In this document: positions 17,926 to 37,299 of the stretch, piece after piece | Position numbering within the stretch: position 1 is the first letter of the stretch | Layout: every line of letters starts with the position of its first letter | NCBI RefSeq assembly: GCF_009727055.1 | Contig: NC_052359.1 | Coordinates: forward strand, 15,202,028-15,266,027 | Reading direction: 5' to 3' | DNA length: 64,000 nucleotides | Source of the DNA: Benincasa hispida | Lineage: Eukaryota > Streptophyta > Magnoliopsida > Cucurbitales > Cucurbitaceae | Translations under genes and position numbers: made by a program | Notes under the pieces: generated by a model | Databases searched by the model: none | Seen by the model: only the letters and a program-made list of their open reading frames with translations | Told to the model about the DNA's origin: nothing

Positions 17926-20340
17926 GATTTTGTTGATGATTATTCATGATATGATTATATTTACCTGATGAGTCACAAGTCTGAAACTCATGAAAAGTTC
18001 AAAGAATTTAAGACAGAAGTTGAAAGCTTATTAGGTAAAAGAATTAAAACACTTCGATCACATCGAGGTGGTGAGTATATGTATTTACAATTCTAAAACT
18101 ATCTAGTAGTTCATAGAATTCAATCCCAACTCATAGCACTTGGAACACCACAACAAAATGGTGATGTAGAAAGGAGAAATCGAACCTTGTTGGACATAGT
18201 TCATTCAATGATGAGTTATGCTAAATTACCTCAATCCTTTTGGGGGTATGTAATGCACACTGTTGTATATATTTTGAACCTAGATCCCTCAAAAAGTGTT
18301 TTGGGAACACCATATGAGCTATGGAGAGAACGTAAAGGTAGTTTACGTCACTTAGAATCTAGGGATGCCTGACACATGTGTTGATGCAAAACTCTAAGAA
18401 ATTGAAACGACATTTAAAACTATGGCTATTTGTAGGATACCCTAAAGAAAAAAAAAATGTGGATTTTTTTTATGATCTTCAAGATGATAAAGTATTTATA
18501 TCGACAAATGCTATATTCTTAGAAGAAGATCATATTAAGAATCATCAACCTCGCAGTAAACTAGTATTAAAGGAAATGTCCAGAGAAATTACAAATTCAA
18601 CAAGAGTTGTTGATCAAGCTGGTCCATCAATAACAGTTGTTGCTTCATCACATCCTTCTCAAGAATTAAGAATGCCTCGACATAGTGAGAGGGTTATACG
18701 ACAACCTGATCGATACATGGGTTTAACAGAAACTCAGGTCATCATACCTGATGATGGCTTGGAGGATCCATTAACCTTTTAACAAGTAATGGAAATTGTT
18801 GATAGGGATCAGTAGATAAAAGCCATGGACCTAGAAATGGAATTGATATACTTTAGTTCTATCTGAGAACTTGTAGATCAACCAGATGGGGTAAAAACCG
18901 TTGGTTGCAAGTGGATCTGCAAGAGAAATCGAGATCAAACTGGTTAGGTGCAGACCTATAAAGCCAGACTCGTGGCAGAAGGTTTTACCCAAAGAGAAGG
19001 GGTAGACTATGAAGAAACCTTCTCTCCTGTTGCCATGATAAAATCTATAAGAATACTTTTATCCATTGATAGATTTTATGACTATGAAATATGACAAATG
19101 GATGTCAAGACAGCCTCTTTGAATGACCATCTTGATGAAAGTATTTACATGTCTCAACCCGAAGGGTTTATTGAATAGAGTCAAGAGCAAAAGGTTTGCA
19201 AGTATAAAAGTTCCATTAATTTATAGGTTAAAACAAGCATCTAGATCCTAGAATATAAGATTTAACATTGCGATCAAATCTTATGGTTTTGGCAAAATGT
19301 TGACGATCCTTATGTTTACAAGAAGATAGTCAACAAAAGTGTAGCTTTCCTTGTCTTTTATGTTGATGATATCTTGCTCATTGGGAATGAGACAAGTATT
19401 CTTGTTGACGTAAAAAGATGGCTAGCAATGTAATTCCAAATGAAAGATTTAGGAGATGCACAATACGCTCTTGGAATCCAAATAGTTCGAAATCACAAGA
19501 ACAGAATGCACTTTCTCAACTATCTTATATTGACAAGATGTTGTCAAGGTATAATATACAAAATACCAAAAATGATACGTTACCTTTTAGACATGAAATT
19601 CATTTGTCAAATGAACAGTGTCCTAAGACACCTCAAGAAGTTGAGAAAATGAAAAGAATTCCATTTGCATTAGCAGTTGGGAGCCTGATGTACGCTATGT
19701 TGTGTACACGTCTTGACATATGCTTTGCAGTTGGAATTGTTAGCAGGTTCCAATCTAACCCTAGACATAATCATTGGACTGTTGTTAAGAATATCCTCAA
19801 GTATCTTCTGAGAACGAGGGACTATATGCTTGTTTATAGGCCTAAGTATTTGATCCTTATAGAATACATTGATTCTTATTTTCATATTGATATAGATTCT
19901 AGGAAATCTACTTCGGCATCACTTTTCACTCTTTAGCGAGGAGCTCTAGTGTGAAGAAGCATCAAGCAGAGTTGTATCTTTGACTGCACGATGGAAGCTG
20001 AATATGTAGTTGCATGTAAAGCAGCTAAAAAAATTGTATGGCTACGCAAGTTCCTGATAGATTTGGAAGTGGTTCCAAATATGCATCTACCTATCACTTT
20101 GTATTGTGATAACAGTGGAGCAGTTGAAAATTTAAAGGAACCAAGAAGCCACAAATGCAGAAAATATATCGAGAGAAAGTAACATCTCATCAGGGAGATA
20201 GTACATCGAAGAGACTTGATAGTCATGAAGATAACCTTTTAAGATATTCTTACTGATCCATTTACGAAGGCCCTCTCGGCGAAAGTGTTCGAGGGCCACC
20301 TGATTGGATTAGGACTACGAGCTTCATTATCTAGGGCAAG
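17926..20340 (+). pseudogene. Copia polyprotein remnant: integrase, RT, RNase H
   Basis: Integrase starts near 17930 with FVDDYS, followed by TLRSHRGGEYM, then GTPQQNGDVERRNRTLLD and SFWGYVMHTVVYILN (about 18140-18280). The C-terminal integrase region has LFVGYPKEKK and LEEDHIKNHQPRSKLVLKE (to 18780). RT includes [34 protein letters not shown] and the catalytic YVDDILLIGNE (YVDDILL at 19359-19379). RNase H has TRLDICFAVGIVSRFQ, DSRKSTSA, CTMEAEYVV and DPFTKALSAK. Many stops and several frameshifts break the frame. Domain order INT-RT-RH is copia-specific; motifs resemble the Tork/Tnt1-type branch and the fragment at 3727-4943. Confidence 0.85.
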
Positions 20341-24110: not shown

Positions 24111-24936
24111 ATTACTCCCAGAAACAACTTGAAACGATCCAAACAATGTGCGCATAGTGTGCCTTTGAACTTCCCATTCGACACGAACCGATCAAGAAAC
24201 TTCTCATCGGTAAGAACCCTTTCCTCGCCGCTGTCAAGCTCAAAAGCACTGCTACAAAATTCTGGCAAATTCATCTCTTCCTTTCTTCTGATCACTCCTT
24301 CAATCTGCTCGCCTCCTCCGAACTATTGATCATTAGAGTGTAAATTATGTCTATCTATGATTCCCTTCATGCTTCAGAAAGTCAAACACAGATAGTAATA
24401 TAATCAATGGAGGAAATGACTAAACAATAAGAAATTAATGATAATGAATTCATGTTTCCACTCCAATCTTTATAATTTAGAGAGATCAAAGAGTCAAGCA
24501 TAAACATCGTTATCATAACTGCAATAGTTAGAATTGAGTGACTGAAAAGTTCAGTCATCACTATTACCATAAACCTCGTTGTTGATGAGAAAGCTAGGCT
24601 CGAGGCATGATTTATAGTTTTCATTTAGCCTTTTCTGTTTGTTATGACAAAATTTATGAGGCACTACTTTACAAGAATATCCTCTTGTATCCATTATCGA
24701 ATTGGTTAATATCCTTATTTGTTCTCATCTTTTTCCGTAAGATTGTTGTAAGCAAAGTACATGTGTTTTCTTTGGTTAGTTCTTTATTTCTGTCTCGGTT
24801 CTCACCCTTTTTAATAACATACTGTCCTTTATAAATGGAATTAAAGTAGGTTCGAGAAACGTAGAACTCAGAAAACGTGGGAAACTGATTACAGTTTTTG
24901 TTTCTGGAAAAAATAAAATATAAGAAAGAGAGAAAT

Positions 24937-25118
24937 CTTGAGCTGGAATACTCAAACAACTTTCTAGTGGTGGAGAAGATAATGAGGGCAACATCGACAT
25001 CGCATAAAATGGAAAGCTCTTTAGCTTTGTTGAAAAGTCCCCTCCGACGCTTGGAGAAAGTGATCTGCCTCGCAGTGGCGTTATCGATCTTCCTGATCTG
25101 AATTTTCTCCTTCACCAT
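24937..25118 (-). pseudogene. MADS-box first exon, SVP/AGL24-like, captured in a CACTA element
   Basis: The minus strand starts ATG at 25118 and encodes a 60-residue MADS DNA-binding domain: [18 protein letters not shown] at the N-terminus, then [22 protein letters not shown] and KLFEYSSS. The [18 protein letters not shown] start is typical of the SVP/AGL24 (StMADS11) clade of flowering-time and dormancy regulators. The 182-bp length fits the usual first exon of MIKC-type MADS genes. The frame is intact, but three normally fixed positions differ (NKA for KKA, CDVDVA for CDADVA, TTRKL for xxGKL). The dinucleotide after the expected exon end is AT, not GT, so normal splicing is doubtful. No I, K or C domain exon follows. 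I read it as a captured gene fragment. Confidence 0.8.
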
Positions 25119-25340
25119 TTCAATCTCTATAACTAGCTATAGCCTTGCTTTATGATAGAGAAACACTGAGAAAATTGAGAGAGAAACATGAAAAAAGTTC
25201 AGATAAAATAGTTTCAGTTAGAGAAATTTGTAGTTTCGTGAAAAGAAACAGTAAAAGGCCGAACTAACCAGTGAACAATTGAAGGAATTGAGCCAGAAAT
25301 AGAAAATCCGAAATAGGCCTCACAGGAACGGAGAGGGACA

Positions 25341-30877: not shown

Positions 30878-33800
30878 ATGGCCACTTCAAAACAACAACT
30901 TGAAGTCCGTAAAGAAGACCACCATACTCCATCAAAATGGACTGTTGCTTTGGGAGAAGATGTTTTTAGAAGATTTCTAGGGCAATCTAACACTGCTGTG
31001 CAAAAGGTGTTCAGCGATGGCTCGTTGTTTAGCCCGTTGCTGTTCGGAAAGTTCTTCGACCCGGCCGATGCTTTTCCGCTATGGGAGTTTGAGTCTGATC
31101 TACTGTTGTCTAACCTTCGCAGCTCTGGAAAATCTTCAATAGATTGGTTTCAAACTGATCAAGAATACGTTCTACAAGCAGAATTACTAGGTATTTTTTT
31201 CACTTATTCCACCTTTTCTGAAAAATACTAATACATTTTTTTTTTTATGGAAAATTCAACCTCAAATCTTGAGATTTTTAGTATAAATTTATGTTACACT
31301 AAATTATGTTCACATTAGCTTAATTACTATTCTTATCATCTCATTTGAAAATTTTAAAATTAAAAGATCAAGCATTAAAATTATATAATTAAGTAATAAA
31401 GAAAATGTGTAAGGAGAAATTTAGTAAAAAAAATTATATGTATATTTTATTTAGTATAATTAGGATTGAAGAATTCAAATCACAAATCTTGTGATTAGTA
31501 CACTCATATACCAATTGAGTTATGTTTATTTTGACTTAGATTTCAAAATATGAAAATAGTATTTAATAGTGTAAAATTAAACATTTAATTGATTTTGAGT
31601 GATTAATGTTATGCTTTTAATCAACTCATATGCTATGATCGATTTTCTTATAGTAAATATTGAAAACCACTTTTGGTCCCTCAATTTTGTTAGAAATATC
31701 AATTTAGTGGATCTTGAACTTTGAATTGTTATAACTTAGTCCATATAATTTTAGTTTTATAACAATTTAATTCTTGTATGTTAGTAAGAAACAAATTTAG
31801 TCACCGTACTTTTAAATTTGTAAAAGTTAATCTCTATTGGAAAAAGTTTTATAAAGATTAAACATCAACTTTTGTTGTTTAACAATTTGGACTTTGTAGC
31901 TCATAAACATATCGAGAGACTAAATAGTTTGTTGATTTATTGCGATTGAGGCATAAGAAATGTAATTAAATCTTAACAATAAAATAAGGACTAAATTGTT
32001 GTATGTTAAAATTTAAAGGCTAATTAAATTGTTACAAAATTTAAAAATACATCTAGATGGTCACAAATGAAAAGTTGGAGGATTTTTAAGATTTTTAGTT
32101 CGGCTAAAAACACTTCCTGAAAACTATTAGATAATTTCAAAATTTATAACCTTATTAATTATTATTTTTTTTCTTTAACTGAAGGTCTAAAAACAGAGAT
32201 GAAAATGGTGGGAGGACAAAGTTACTTTAAATCATAGACTGAAGAACTAAAAAATGTCCCACATCGAAAGACTTTTAGAATCTCGAAGCCTTTAAAAAAT
32301 TTAATTTAAAGTTGTTAGCCGGGATGTGGGTAGGAACACCACGCGCTATTCTAAACCCTAAACCTAATACAGAATTATGGGGAATTTCCCCGGCGTCTAC
32401 CCCGTAGACCTCGAAAATAAACGCCGATGCTTTGCGTGTGGTTTTAAGTTTCCGGTGGTCAAATTACGCCTTTGAGGTTCGTAGGTGGTGTGCTGCTCCA
32501 CCGTGGCCAATTGGTGCCATTGCAGTCACCAGTATCCTCGCCTCTTAATCATCCCATTTTTTATAATATTCCAAAGTACTTTATTTTTGTTATTATTATT
32601 TTTGTATATAATAATACCTTTTTCGTCTTGGTGTTTATTCAGTGGGTTTTTATTCTTTCTTGTTCACTTTAGAAAGCCACTTTTTTTTTCATAGGGTTCT
32701 TAACTTTAAATTTATAAAGTTAACTTTTCTCTCAATTCTACTAGCTTTATCAAATACTTATTTTACACTATAACTCAACTTGTTAAAATATAAACTTTGA
32801 ACTAATTCGAATTCTTTCACATCTATTTGGTTCTTCTTTCACAATCCTTTTTCTATATGCACACAACAATTCTAATTATGTAGAGATCAAATTCTATTAT
32901 TAGTTATTTGTCTCTTAGGAACATATTTTTATCAATAATATATGTCTAGGCACTTGATTGTTTTATTTTATTTTATTTTATATTTTTAATTATTCTCATT
33001 TTAGTAATTTACTATTCAAGAAATTTTTTAATGTAACTAAAACTTTTAATTAGATCAAACAAAAAATTGAAATTATACCACTAAGATGAAATTATAAGTT
33101 TAATTAATGTTTTTTTAAGTTTATGTCTAATCGGTTCATGAACTATAAAAAAAATAAAATAAAATAAAAAATTCTAGTAAGTTTCGAAAATTTTAATTTT
33201 GTGAGTAGGTTACTAAATTTTAAATATAGTGTTTAATAAGTCTTTAAATTTTTAATTTATATTGAATAGAGATCCTTTGAACTATCAATTTTAAGGTTCT
33301 TGATTTGTTCAACATTGTAAAAAACTCAAACATCTATGGGTAATTGTTTTAAATGGTAAAATTGTTGAAAATATTTTTAAATATAACAAAATATCACTGT
33401 CTATCAGTAATGGACCGCGATAGAATTTTTAATTTTATGCTTATTAGGTCTCTAGAAAGTTTCGATTTTTTATATAATAAGTCTTTGACATATTTAACAT
33501 TTTGTTAAAAGAAATTAATGTAACTATTAGACATAAGGTTGAATCTTCTGTTTGATGGACTTTGAAATTCTATTATATTTGTAAATAACTTGGCTTATTT
33601 TTATTTATTTAAAAATAACCCAACATCTATTATATAATTTAACGTAGAAATATATTTTTTTGACAATATGTGAGGTGGGGATTAAACCTCGAGCTTCGAG
33701 GTCAATAGTCCATAATTGATGTCAGTTAAACTATACTCTAGAAATAAAATATTAAGTCTTTTAATAAGCTATATAATAATTATTATTATTATCATTAAAG

Positions 33801-34546
33801 TATTAATAGAAGTTATTTTTACCATAATAGTTTTTGTGAACCTTCTTACCATAACTTTTTTTTAGTACAAAAGGGTGAGAGGATTCAAATATAGATCTCT
33901 TGTTCACAAAAAAATATTAAATATTAGTCAAAGTATTCTCATTTTGACCATTCCTATCATAAAAAAGGGATGATCAATATATTATAGTCAAAACAGGTAT
34001 TATTTTTTATTTTTTAGTAGAAAAGTGCTTTTAACTTTGATCATGGTTAAGAGCATTTCTCAAACATTTATTTTGCAGAGATTTGAAGTTGAAAGGATCA
34101 TGATAAGAGAATAGATTTTAATGCTGAATTATGTATGCAACAACTACATTTTAAAAGACTCTCCAAAGGCCCTTCAATTCTCTCTGTTGCTTCTCATACA
34201 AAAAAAGTTGGGTGATATGTTTGATTTGACACAAAGCAAAATTTGACAAACCACAGAAGCTTGGAGAAATGCATTACAAATCTCCATAGAAGATGGGAAG
34301 GTGTTAGAGATAAGTGGTCAGTTGAAGGAGCAACAAAGAGAAGGCAAGACGATCGTCGATTGGCGACATGTCAATTGGTGGGAGCATGGATACGTTCGAC
34401 GACTCGAGTTGCCCGAAGACGCTGATTGGTCTAGAATGGAGGCTCGTATGAAGAATGACAATGTTCTTGAGATCAAGATTCAAAAGTCAGAAACTAATCA
34501 AGGTGTTGAATCAAAGAGCAAAGATAATTCTGATGAAGATGCTTAA
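30878..34546 (+). CDS. Class VI small heat-shock protein (HSP20 / alpha-crystallin family), two exons
   Basis: Exon 1 is 30878-31190 and exon 2 is 34257-34546, together 603 bases or 200 residues plus stop. The protein begins MATSKQQLEVRKEDHH and contains SKWTVALGEDVFRRFLGQ, LFSPLLFGKFFDPADAFPLW, SIDWFQTDQEYVLQAELL, then after the splice ISIEDGKVLEISGQL and NWWEHGYVRRLELPEDAD. This pattern matches plant 21.7-kDa class VI small heat-shock proteins as I know them, which are of similar length (about 190 residues). They are ATP-independent chaperones that hold unfolding proteins; the alpha-crystallin domain covers roughly residues 90-180. The splice uses GT at 31191 and AG at 34255-34256 in phase 1 and restores the expected residue spacing. 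The 3066-bp intron is long and holds a candidate Pol III RNA gene. The acidic serine-rich tail ends KDNSDEDA. No frameshift or stop is seen, so it is probably functional. Confidence 0.85.
32256..32300 (+). promoter_or_regulatory. Plant snRNA-type promoter: USE plus TATA at Pol III spacing
   Basis: GTCCCACATCG at 32256-32266 is an exact match to the plant snRNA upstream sequence element RTCCCACATCG. A TATA-like TTAAAAAAT begins at 32292, 25 bases after it. In plants this roughly three-helical-turn spacing specifies RNA polymerase III (U6, U3 and MRP RNA genes), while a spacing about 10 bases longer specifies polymerase II. Transcription should begin about 25 bases downstream of the TATA. Confidence 0.65.
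32317..32557 (+). ncRNA. Candidate Pol III small RNA gene in an intron (possibly RNase MRP RNA)
   Basis: The stretch between the snRNA-type promoter and a T6 run is much more GC-rich than the surrounding intron and has no meaningful open frame. Visible hairpins include GGGGAATTTCCCC (32379-32391) and GTCTAC-CCC-GTAGAC (32395-32409), and GGTGG pairs with CCACC near 32485-32505. Its length of about 240 nt fits plant RNase MRP RNA. The block GGGGAATTTCCCCGG resembles the GGGGAAAGTCCCCGG core (CR-I) of vertebrate MRP RNA. I cannot confirm identity without a covariance search; RNase P RNA or an unknown Pol III RNA are alternatives. It lies on the same strand as the host gene. Start and end are estimated from promoter spacing and the terminator. 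Confidence 0.5.
32557..32562 (+). terminator. Candidate Pol III terminator (T6)
   Basis: A run of six T residues follows the GC-rich candidate RNA. An earlier TTTT near 32443 could also stop transcription and would give a shorter RNA of about 125 nt. Confidence 0.45.
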
Positions 34547-36399: not shown

Positions 36400-37299
36400 G
36401 TTTCAACTATTAGTAAATTTTATTTACCTTGGTTCGCTTTTTTCACTTTCTTTTCTGCCTAGTACTTTGGGCAATTACACTTCCAATGCCTATCTTCTCC
36501 GCAATGGAAATACTTTCCTTTGGGAGCTTATTTTTTTTTTCTTAGTAGTGATTTTCTTATTCCCTTTACCCTTCTTCTTCATTTGTACATCTTTGTCTTT
36601 TGAAGAAGAGGGAACAGACTTCTTTTAATAAGTGGGTTTTGTTCCAGACGTAGAACCTTTTACAAACTTTTTAGATCGTGAAATAACATTTACTTCACTT
36701 TCTTTAAGTTTCATCATAGATTGATATGTCTGTAGCTCATTCAACAGTGTAGTCAAATTGTAAGTAATTTTGTTAATAACAACATTTGTTCTGAAAGGTA
36801 GATAACTCGCTGGGAGAGATTCTAATATCATATTGACGTGATTGATTTCATCTATCATCGCCCCATGAGCCTCAACAATATTAAAATGAACCATCATATC
36901 GAGAACATGTTCTCTAACGTTGGTACCATATTTCATGCGAGTACTATAAACATACTTAATGGCTTCTTGTCGAACAGAGGATGACGGTTGCTCGAACATC
37001 TCTTGGAGCGACGTCCTTATCTCACGGGCAGTGGACATTACCTCATGTTTCTTATTAAGTACATCGGATATACTTGCTAAGATATAAGCCCTAGCTTTTT
37101 CGTTAGCCCTAACCCATCGATCATAGATGTCCTGAACATTTCGGTTCGCTGTTGTACTGGAAACCGGAGGACATTCATCCGACAACACAAACCTGAAATC
37201 ATCCACAACTAATATTGTATTAATGTTAGATTTCTAGTTTGAATATCCTTCTCCGTTAAATTTATCAGAAGCAAGCAGTTGTATAATTCAATTTGACAT
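36400..37299 (-). pseudogene. Copia gag (UBN2 type) with zinc knuckle, pol deleted
   Basis: The minus strand begins with ATG at 37299. FNGEGYSN-stop-K stands where copia gag has LNGxNYxxWK. An uninterrupted 193-codon stretch follows from 37206, with NTILVVDDFRFVL just across its start, ANEKARAYILASISDVL, TSLQEMFEQPSSSVRQEA and LESLPASYLPFRTNVV. A lysine-rich tail follows a stop near 36627, and a shifted frame gives a knuckle remnant FHCGEDRHWKCNC near 36490. The first cysteine of the CCHC box is a tyrosine. Gag forms the virus-like particle of copia elements. No protease, integrase or RT follows: the element was internally deleted down to the 3' LTR. Confidence 0.8.

Follow-up and report, generated by a model that had tools for sequence, protein, structure and literature searches.

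Does the GC-rich block that lies inside the long intron of a heat-shock gene in wax gourd (Benincasa hispida) encode an RNA of its own, and if so, which one? The original prediction had proposed a gene transcribed by RNA polymerase III (Pol III) for a small structured RNA, possibly the RNA of RNase MRP, on the same strand as its host. Our analysis of the whole 64-kb stretch of DNA that surrounds the block (the window) retains the gene and changes the identity of its product: we assign positions 32318-32562, with a probability of about 92%, to the telomerase RNA (TR) sequence of this species, a figure that includes the case of a non-working or second TR copy. The best explanation for the locus as a whole is a TR gene, probably transcribed by Pol III, that lies in sense orientation within the 3066-nt intron of a class VI small heat-shock gene. 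What was observed in support of this reading consists of promoter elements, a template, a terminator, predicted stems and a host gene model (Table 1), and the assignment is built on features described for other TRs; none of the Rfam families matched the block.

Table 1. Features of the host gene and of the putative telomerase RNA gene, with positions counted from the first base of the window.
Feature	Position	Strand	Basis or remark
Host exon 1, 21.7 kDa class VI heat-shock protein (HSP20)	30878..31190	+	Open join and protein match
Host intron, 3066 nt, GT-AG	31191..34256	+	Carries the RNA gene in sense orientation
Upstream Sequence Element (USE) GTCCCACATCG, exact RTCCCACATCG	32256..32266	+	Consensus per PMC9845283
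TATA-like AT-rich box, begins TTTAAAAAATTTAATTTAAA	32291..32310	+	Pol III-type spacing, rule in PMC9845283
Predicted telomerase RNA, ~240 nt	32318..32562	+	Both ends deduced from the promoter spacing and the T6 run
Closing stem P1, 5′ strand GGGATG	32321..32326	+	Pairs with 32550-32555
Template-boundary-like helix, 5′ strand ACCACGCGC	32338..32346	+	Pairs with 32434-32442, one G-U
Template CTAAACCCTAAACC, complementary to two full TTTAGGG repeats	32351..32364	+	Sequence, pair probabilities
Possible pseudoknot P2, 5′ strand TTATGGGG	32375..32382	+	Pairs with 32400-32407
Possible pseudoknot P3, 5′ strand CGGCGT	32391..32396	+	Pairs with 32421-32426
Possible pseudoknot P2, 3′ strand CCCCGTAG, in C-rich stretch	32400..32407	+	Pairs with 32375-32382
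Possible pseudoknot P3, 3′ strand ACGCCG, A-rich loop before it	32421..32426	+	Pairs with 32391-32396
Template-boundary-like helix, 3′ strand GCGTGTGGT	32434..32442	+	Pairs with 32338-32346
Arm built of successive stems and internal loops, candidate P4/P5/P6	32448..32507	+	MFE helices; assignment inferred
Closing stem P1, 3′ strand CATCCC	32550..32555	+	Pairs with 32321-32326
T6 run, Pol III terminator	32557..32562	+	Sequence
Host exon 2 up to stop codon	34257..34546	+	Open join and protein match

The promoter and terminator were found as originally described. According to a review, plant U6 and U3 promoters carry a USE with the consensus RTCCCACATCG, placed one helical turn nearer to the TATA box than in Pol II snRNA genes (PMC9845283). 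The exact element in the intron is the sole match to this consensus at up to one mismatch on both strands of the window, and since 0.74 such matches are expected there by chance, the USE by itself constitutes weak evidence. The TATA-like box follows after a 24-nt gap from the end of the USE and begins 27 nt upstream of 32318, so that the RNA is predicted to start at 32318-32321 and to end within the T6 run. Counted from this inferred start it would measure ~240 nt, inside the 234-390 nt range given for plant TRs (PMC12169523). The GC-rich block of about 240 bases was also borne out, with a GC content of 51% over 32318-32556 versus 23% in the remaining intron. Taken together, the USE, the TATA-like box and the T6 run support the claim of a plant snRNA-type (type 3) Pol III gene anatomy for a small structured RNA.

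The nesting of this gene within a heat-shock gene intron, on the same strand, likewise held. Fourteen joins of exon 1 to downstream exons stay open, and the one that we chose (Table 1) yields a 200-aa protein with 100% identity over its full length to the annotated Benincasa hispida 21.7 kDa class VI heat-shock protein, an identity from which we take the host intron to be real. The second-best match, among the best 120 of 305 proteins, was from Citrullus colocynthis (90% identity), and HSP20 was the Pfam domain found in the spliced product. Within the intron we identified seven families of direct repeats of at least 16 nt, two of which (D1, 71% identity; D3, 79% identity) have copies on either side of the block. 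Delivery of the RNA block by a transposon was considered and rejected, since the D1 and D3 repeats are AT-rich and lie at least 162 nt away from it, and the four short AT-rich pairs (9–12 nt) in its near flanks are unconvincing as target-site duplications. Elsewhere in the window we noted an open frame that encodes a DNA-binding domain of the MADS-box (SRF-TF) type (24669-25136, minus strand) and three retrotransposon remnants, with a retroviral polymerase SH3-like domain (18363-18782, plus strand), a copia-type gag (36625-37233, minus strand) and an integrase core (53669-54151, plus strand), the last of which scored just below its curated cut-off (30 versus 32.6 bits).

The identity first suggested for the RNA did not survive. 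RNase MRP RNA is similar in size to the block. Its genes also share the promoter class, the USE being found in U-RNA, MRP RNA and SRP RNA genes alike (PMC12133305), and a length of ~240 nt would suit MRP RNA or another USE-driven RNA such as U3, U6 or SRP RNA. When the whole window was searched with 4227 Rfam families at the gathering threshold, however, none matched at the block, and a search of 31800-33000 at E <= 10 returned no MRP, RNase P, U3, U6 or SRP match; it yielded three chance-level matches (PISRT1, DUF3800-XI and ZEB2_AS1_2). This evidence against MRP is strong but not absolute, because the model was run without a plant MRP positive control. The core P4 motifs of MRP RNA are also absent from the block, which instead carries a telomere-repeat template, and such a template has no known place in MRP, U3, U6 or SRP RNAs. 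We therefore consider it barely credible that the block encodes RNase MRP RNA or another of these USE-driven RNAs.

Two further classes of RNA were rejected. For nuclear RNase P RNA there was no Rfam match at the block, and RNase P in plants is reviewed as having lost its RNA (PMC10226581). For a tRNA or a tRNA-derived SINE, inspection by eye revealed no A box and B box spaced as they usually are, and the single tRNA that ARAGORN reported in the window is the one at 60357. This tRNA-Thr (AGT) gene (60357-60430, plus strand) was also the sole Rfam match at gathering level in the window.

The feature that points to a TR is the template CTAAACCCTAAACC, which had been overlooked in the original prediction. 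With 32318 taken as base 1, the template starts at base 34, which lies 95 nt downstream of the USE start, and it complements the general plant telomere repeat TTTAGGG over more than one repeat. At 14 nt it is the longest telomere-repeat complement in the window, in which the minus strand reaches a maximum of 9 nt, and none of 3000 dinucleotide-shuffled versions of the block contained a 14-nt run of this kind. Bases 32353-32364 of the template are predicted to be unpaired (P at least 0.89), while 32351-32352 are partly paired (0.38 and 0.46). The published rule by which plant telomerase RNAs have been found asks for a USE and a template within 200 nt of each other (PMC12133305), and this combination occurs once in the 64-kb window.

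The same kind of counting bears on the possibility that there is no gene here, and that motifs resembling a USE and a telo-box lie by chance with a GC-rich patch of intron. The rate at which a USE is expected in the window and the modest z-score of the fold (see below) both speak for such a coincidence, as does the abundance of 9-nt telomere motifs: 18 overlapping counts of telomere-like 9-mers were obtained over both strands of the window, compared with a shuffle mean of 5.4, and motifs of this kind reportedly occur often in the vicinity of plant genes (PMC6765143). The joint arrangement of USE and template, however, is rare: with far more permissive requirements (one USE mismatch, nine template nt), 2 of 300 shuffled windows contained it. 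The difference in GC content between the block and the rest of the intron also argues against a random patch. Likewise, a 10-nt USE core followed 70–100 nt downstream by a 9-nt template was found in five stretches of a prokaryote collection whose size is given as 257 billion bases; this count is no more than a rough chance rate, because composition there differs from that of plants. The USE core with a 10-nt template was found in no viral contig. Chance assembly of the locus thus appears very improbable.

A looser pattern of USE and template did pick out two mutually similar viral contigs, L006 (812-906) and L007 (7754-7848), in which CCCACAT and CTAAACCCTAAAC lie within a 95-nt span, compared with 106 nt here (32258-32363). 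We took these matches as chance, since by eye neither is accompanied by a properly placed TATA-like box or by a terminator.

We then compared the predicted fold of the RNA with the architecture described for plant TRs (PMC12133305), in which P1 is the closing stem, P2 and P3 form a pseudoknot, and a template boundary element and the stems P4, P5 and P6 complete the set; in the 268-nt Arabidopsis TR, a long helix closes the template-pseudoknot domain (PMC10226581). Among 200 dinucleotide shuffles of 32318-32560, 11 folded as well as the sequence itself, whose minimum free energy (MFE) was -73.7 kcal/mol (z = -1.58), so that the fold overall is just modestly more stable than shuffled sequence. 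The clear hairpins that had been claimed for the block therefore held for two helices, which are strong (mean pair probabilities of 0.99 and 0.93), and not for the fold as a whole. The shuffle counts given below for helices come from searches over all registers, and the structure tests are post hoc, because the stretches and loop limits were picked after the fold had been seen.

The closing stem P1, of 6 bp, brings the start and the end of the RNA together in the MFE structure of 32318-32562 (pair probability 0.96–0.99), and a terminal helix as long as this was found in 63 of 3000 shuffles. Overlapping this stem, in the G-rich 5′ end of the predicted RNA, the bases GATGTGGG (32323-32330) were seen by eye to be the reverse complement of the USE core CCCACATC, possibly by chance. 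A predicted 9-bp helix (Table 1; pair probability 0.86–0.93) encloses the template region; it was matched in 97 of 3000 shuffles with G-U pairs allowed, while its longest run of Watson-Crick pairs only, 5 bp, was reached in 808 of 3000 and is not unusual. Downstream of the template, the best H-type pseudoknot in 32366-32445 combines TTATGGGG/CCCCGTAG with CGGCGT/ACGCCG, its first loop bearing U and its last rich in A, and 10 of 2000 shuffles offered an equally favourable stacking of P2 and P3 together. This candidate pseudoknot faces competition from two nested hairpins, 32379-32391 and 32395-32409 (mean P of 0.86 and 0.82), which exclude P2; hairpins and pseudoknot also compete in other TRs. 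Enforcing P2 raised the nested energy from -73.7 to -66.1 kcal/mol (a cost of 7.6), and enforcing P3 raised it to -71.8 kcal/mol (a cost of 1.9), in folds of a type that does not score the pseudoknot itself. The arm proposed to correspond to P4/P5/P6 is poorly defined, with mean pair probabilities of 0.18–0.39. An AT-rich region close to the 3′ end of the RNA, a conserved TR feature according to PMC6765143, could not be made out clearly by eye. The template, closing stem, enclosing helix and pseudoknot-capable region fit the plant TR described in PMC6765143 and PMC12133305.

A sequence of this description could also be a TR paralogue or a recent pseudogene that landed in the intron, the working TR being elsewhere, a reading compatible with the block being TR sequence. 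The Mimulus TR genes provide a model for it, since they are duplicated, occupy non-syntenic sites in different sections and include one decayed copy (PMC12169523). At the wax gourd locus, by contrast, the exact USE, the TATA-like box, the 14-nt template, the closing stem and the T6 run are all intact, and a self-BLAST of the 64-kb window revealed no second TR copy, with matches of just 13–23 nt beyond the block itself. We accordingly consider such a non-working or second copy unlikely.

By analogy with AtTR, for which Pol III and SNAPc dependence and the templating function have been reported (PMC6765143), a TR gene at this locus would operate as follows. SNAPc would bind the USE, and factors bound at the TATA-like box would recruit Pol III, which would start near 32318-32321 and stop in the T6 run to give an RNA of ~240 nt. 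The ends of this RNA would pair as P1, the 9-bp helix would enclose the template region, and a pseudoknot could form downstream of the template. The RNA would then assemble with TERT, and perhaps with dyskerin, which has been reported for Allium TR (PMC6765143), and the template 5′-(CU)AAACCCUAAACC would be copied by the complex into TTTAGGG repeats. Transcription, the start site, protein binding and telomerase function are thus the inferred parts of the TR reading.

If this reading is correct, the telomere sequence of the species can be predicted from the locus, which also provides a concrete candidate for a cucurbit TR. Among the literature matches listed, there was none for a TR from wax gourd or cucumber, and a cucurbit TR may stand in the supplement of PMC6765143. 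It was not until 2019 that genuine plant telomerase RNAs were first characterised (PMC7658794), and since no Rfam family matched the block, routine annotation can miss genes of this type. Nor did any of the literature matches listed describe a plant TR within an intron of a protein gene, and the word “intron” is absent from the texts of PMC12169523 and PMC12133305; the sense-strand nesting of a TR in a heat-shock gene intron may therefore be unreported. For a Pol III unit in an intron there is precedent in an antisense mammalian repeat in the first intron of Polr3e, which exerts transcriptional interference on its host (PMC5358760). With an essential RNA made by Pol III from within a same-strand intron of a Pol II heat-shock gene, the locus would offer a natural test of interference between the two polymerases.

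We also considered whether the TR and heat-shock genes could be functionally coupled, such that heat stress alters the supply of TR and the arrangement has been kept by selection in cucurbits. Since the TR gene lies in sense orientation within the intron, Pol II transcription of the host would affect it, and induced transcription would either disturb Pol III initiation or free extra TR from the intron. We regard this coupling as a long shot.

Finally, we compared the locus with known plant TRs. In its USE, TATA box and terminator it resembles, by described features, Arabidopsis AtTR/AtR8 and 75 candidate land-plant TRs (PMC6765143). It shares with land-plant TRs a G-rich 5′ end, a template near that end, a C-rich region downstream and a length near 240–270 nt, and by eye the order of G-rich 5′ end, template, downstream region and C-rich region resembles that in PMC6765143. 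It differs from them in lying inside a protein-gene intron, a position that bears on the evidence for plant TR genes changing genomic site, as the Mimulus paralogues indicate that they can (PMC12169523). The templating AACCCTA and annealing AACC of those paralogues can both be read here, adjacent to each other, at 32354-32364. The template is of the TTTAGGG type, as in Arabidopsis TR, in which, however, the telomere complement spans 9 nt (CTAAACCCT) rather than the 14 nt of Benincasa hispida. For this greater length there is a precedent in carrot: the TR of Daucus carota, compared at the template alone, likewise has a 14-nt template region with two complete repeat units (PMC7658794).
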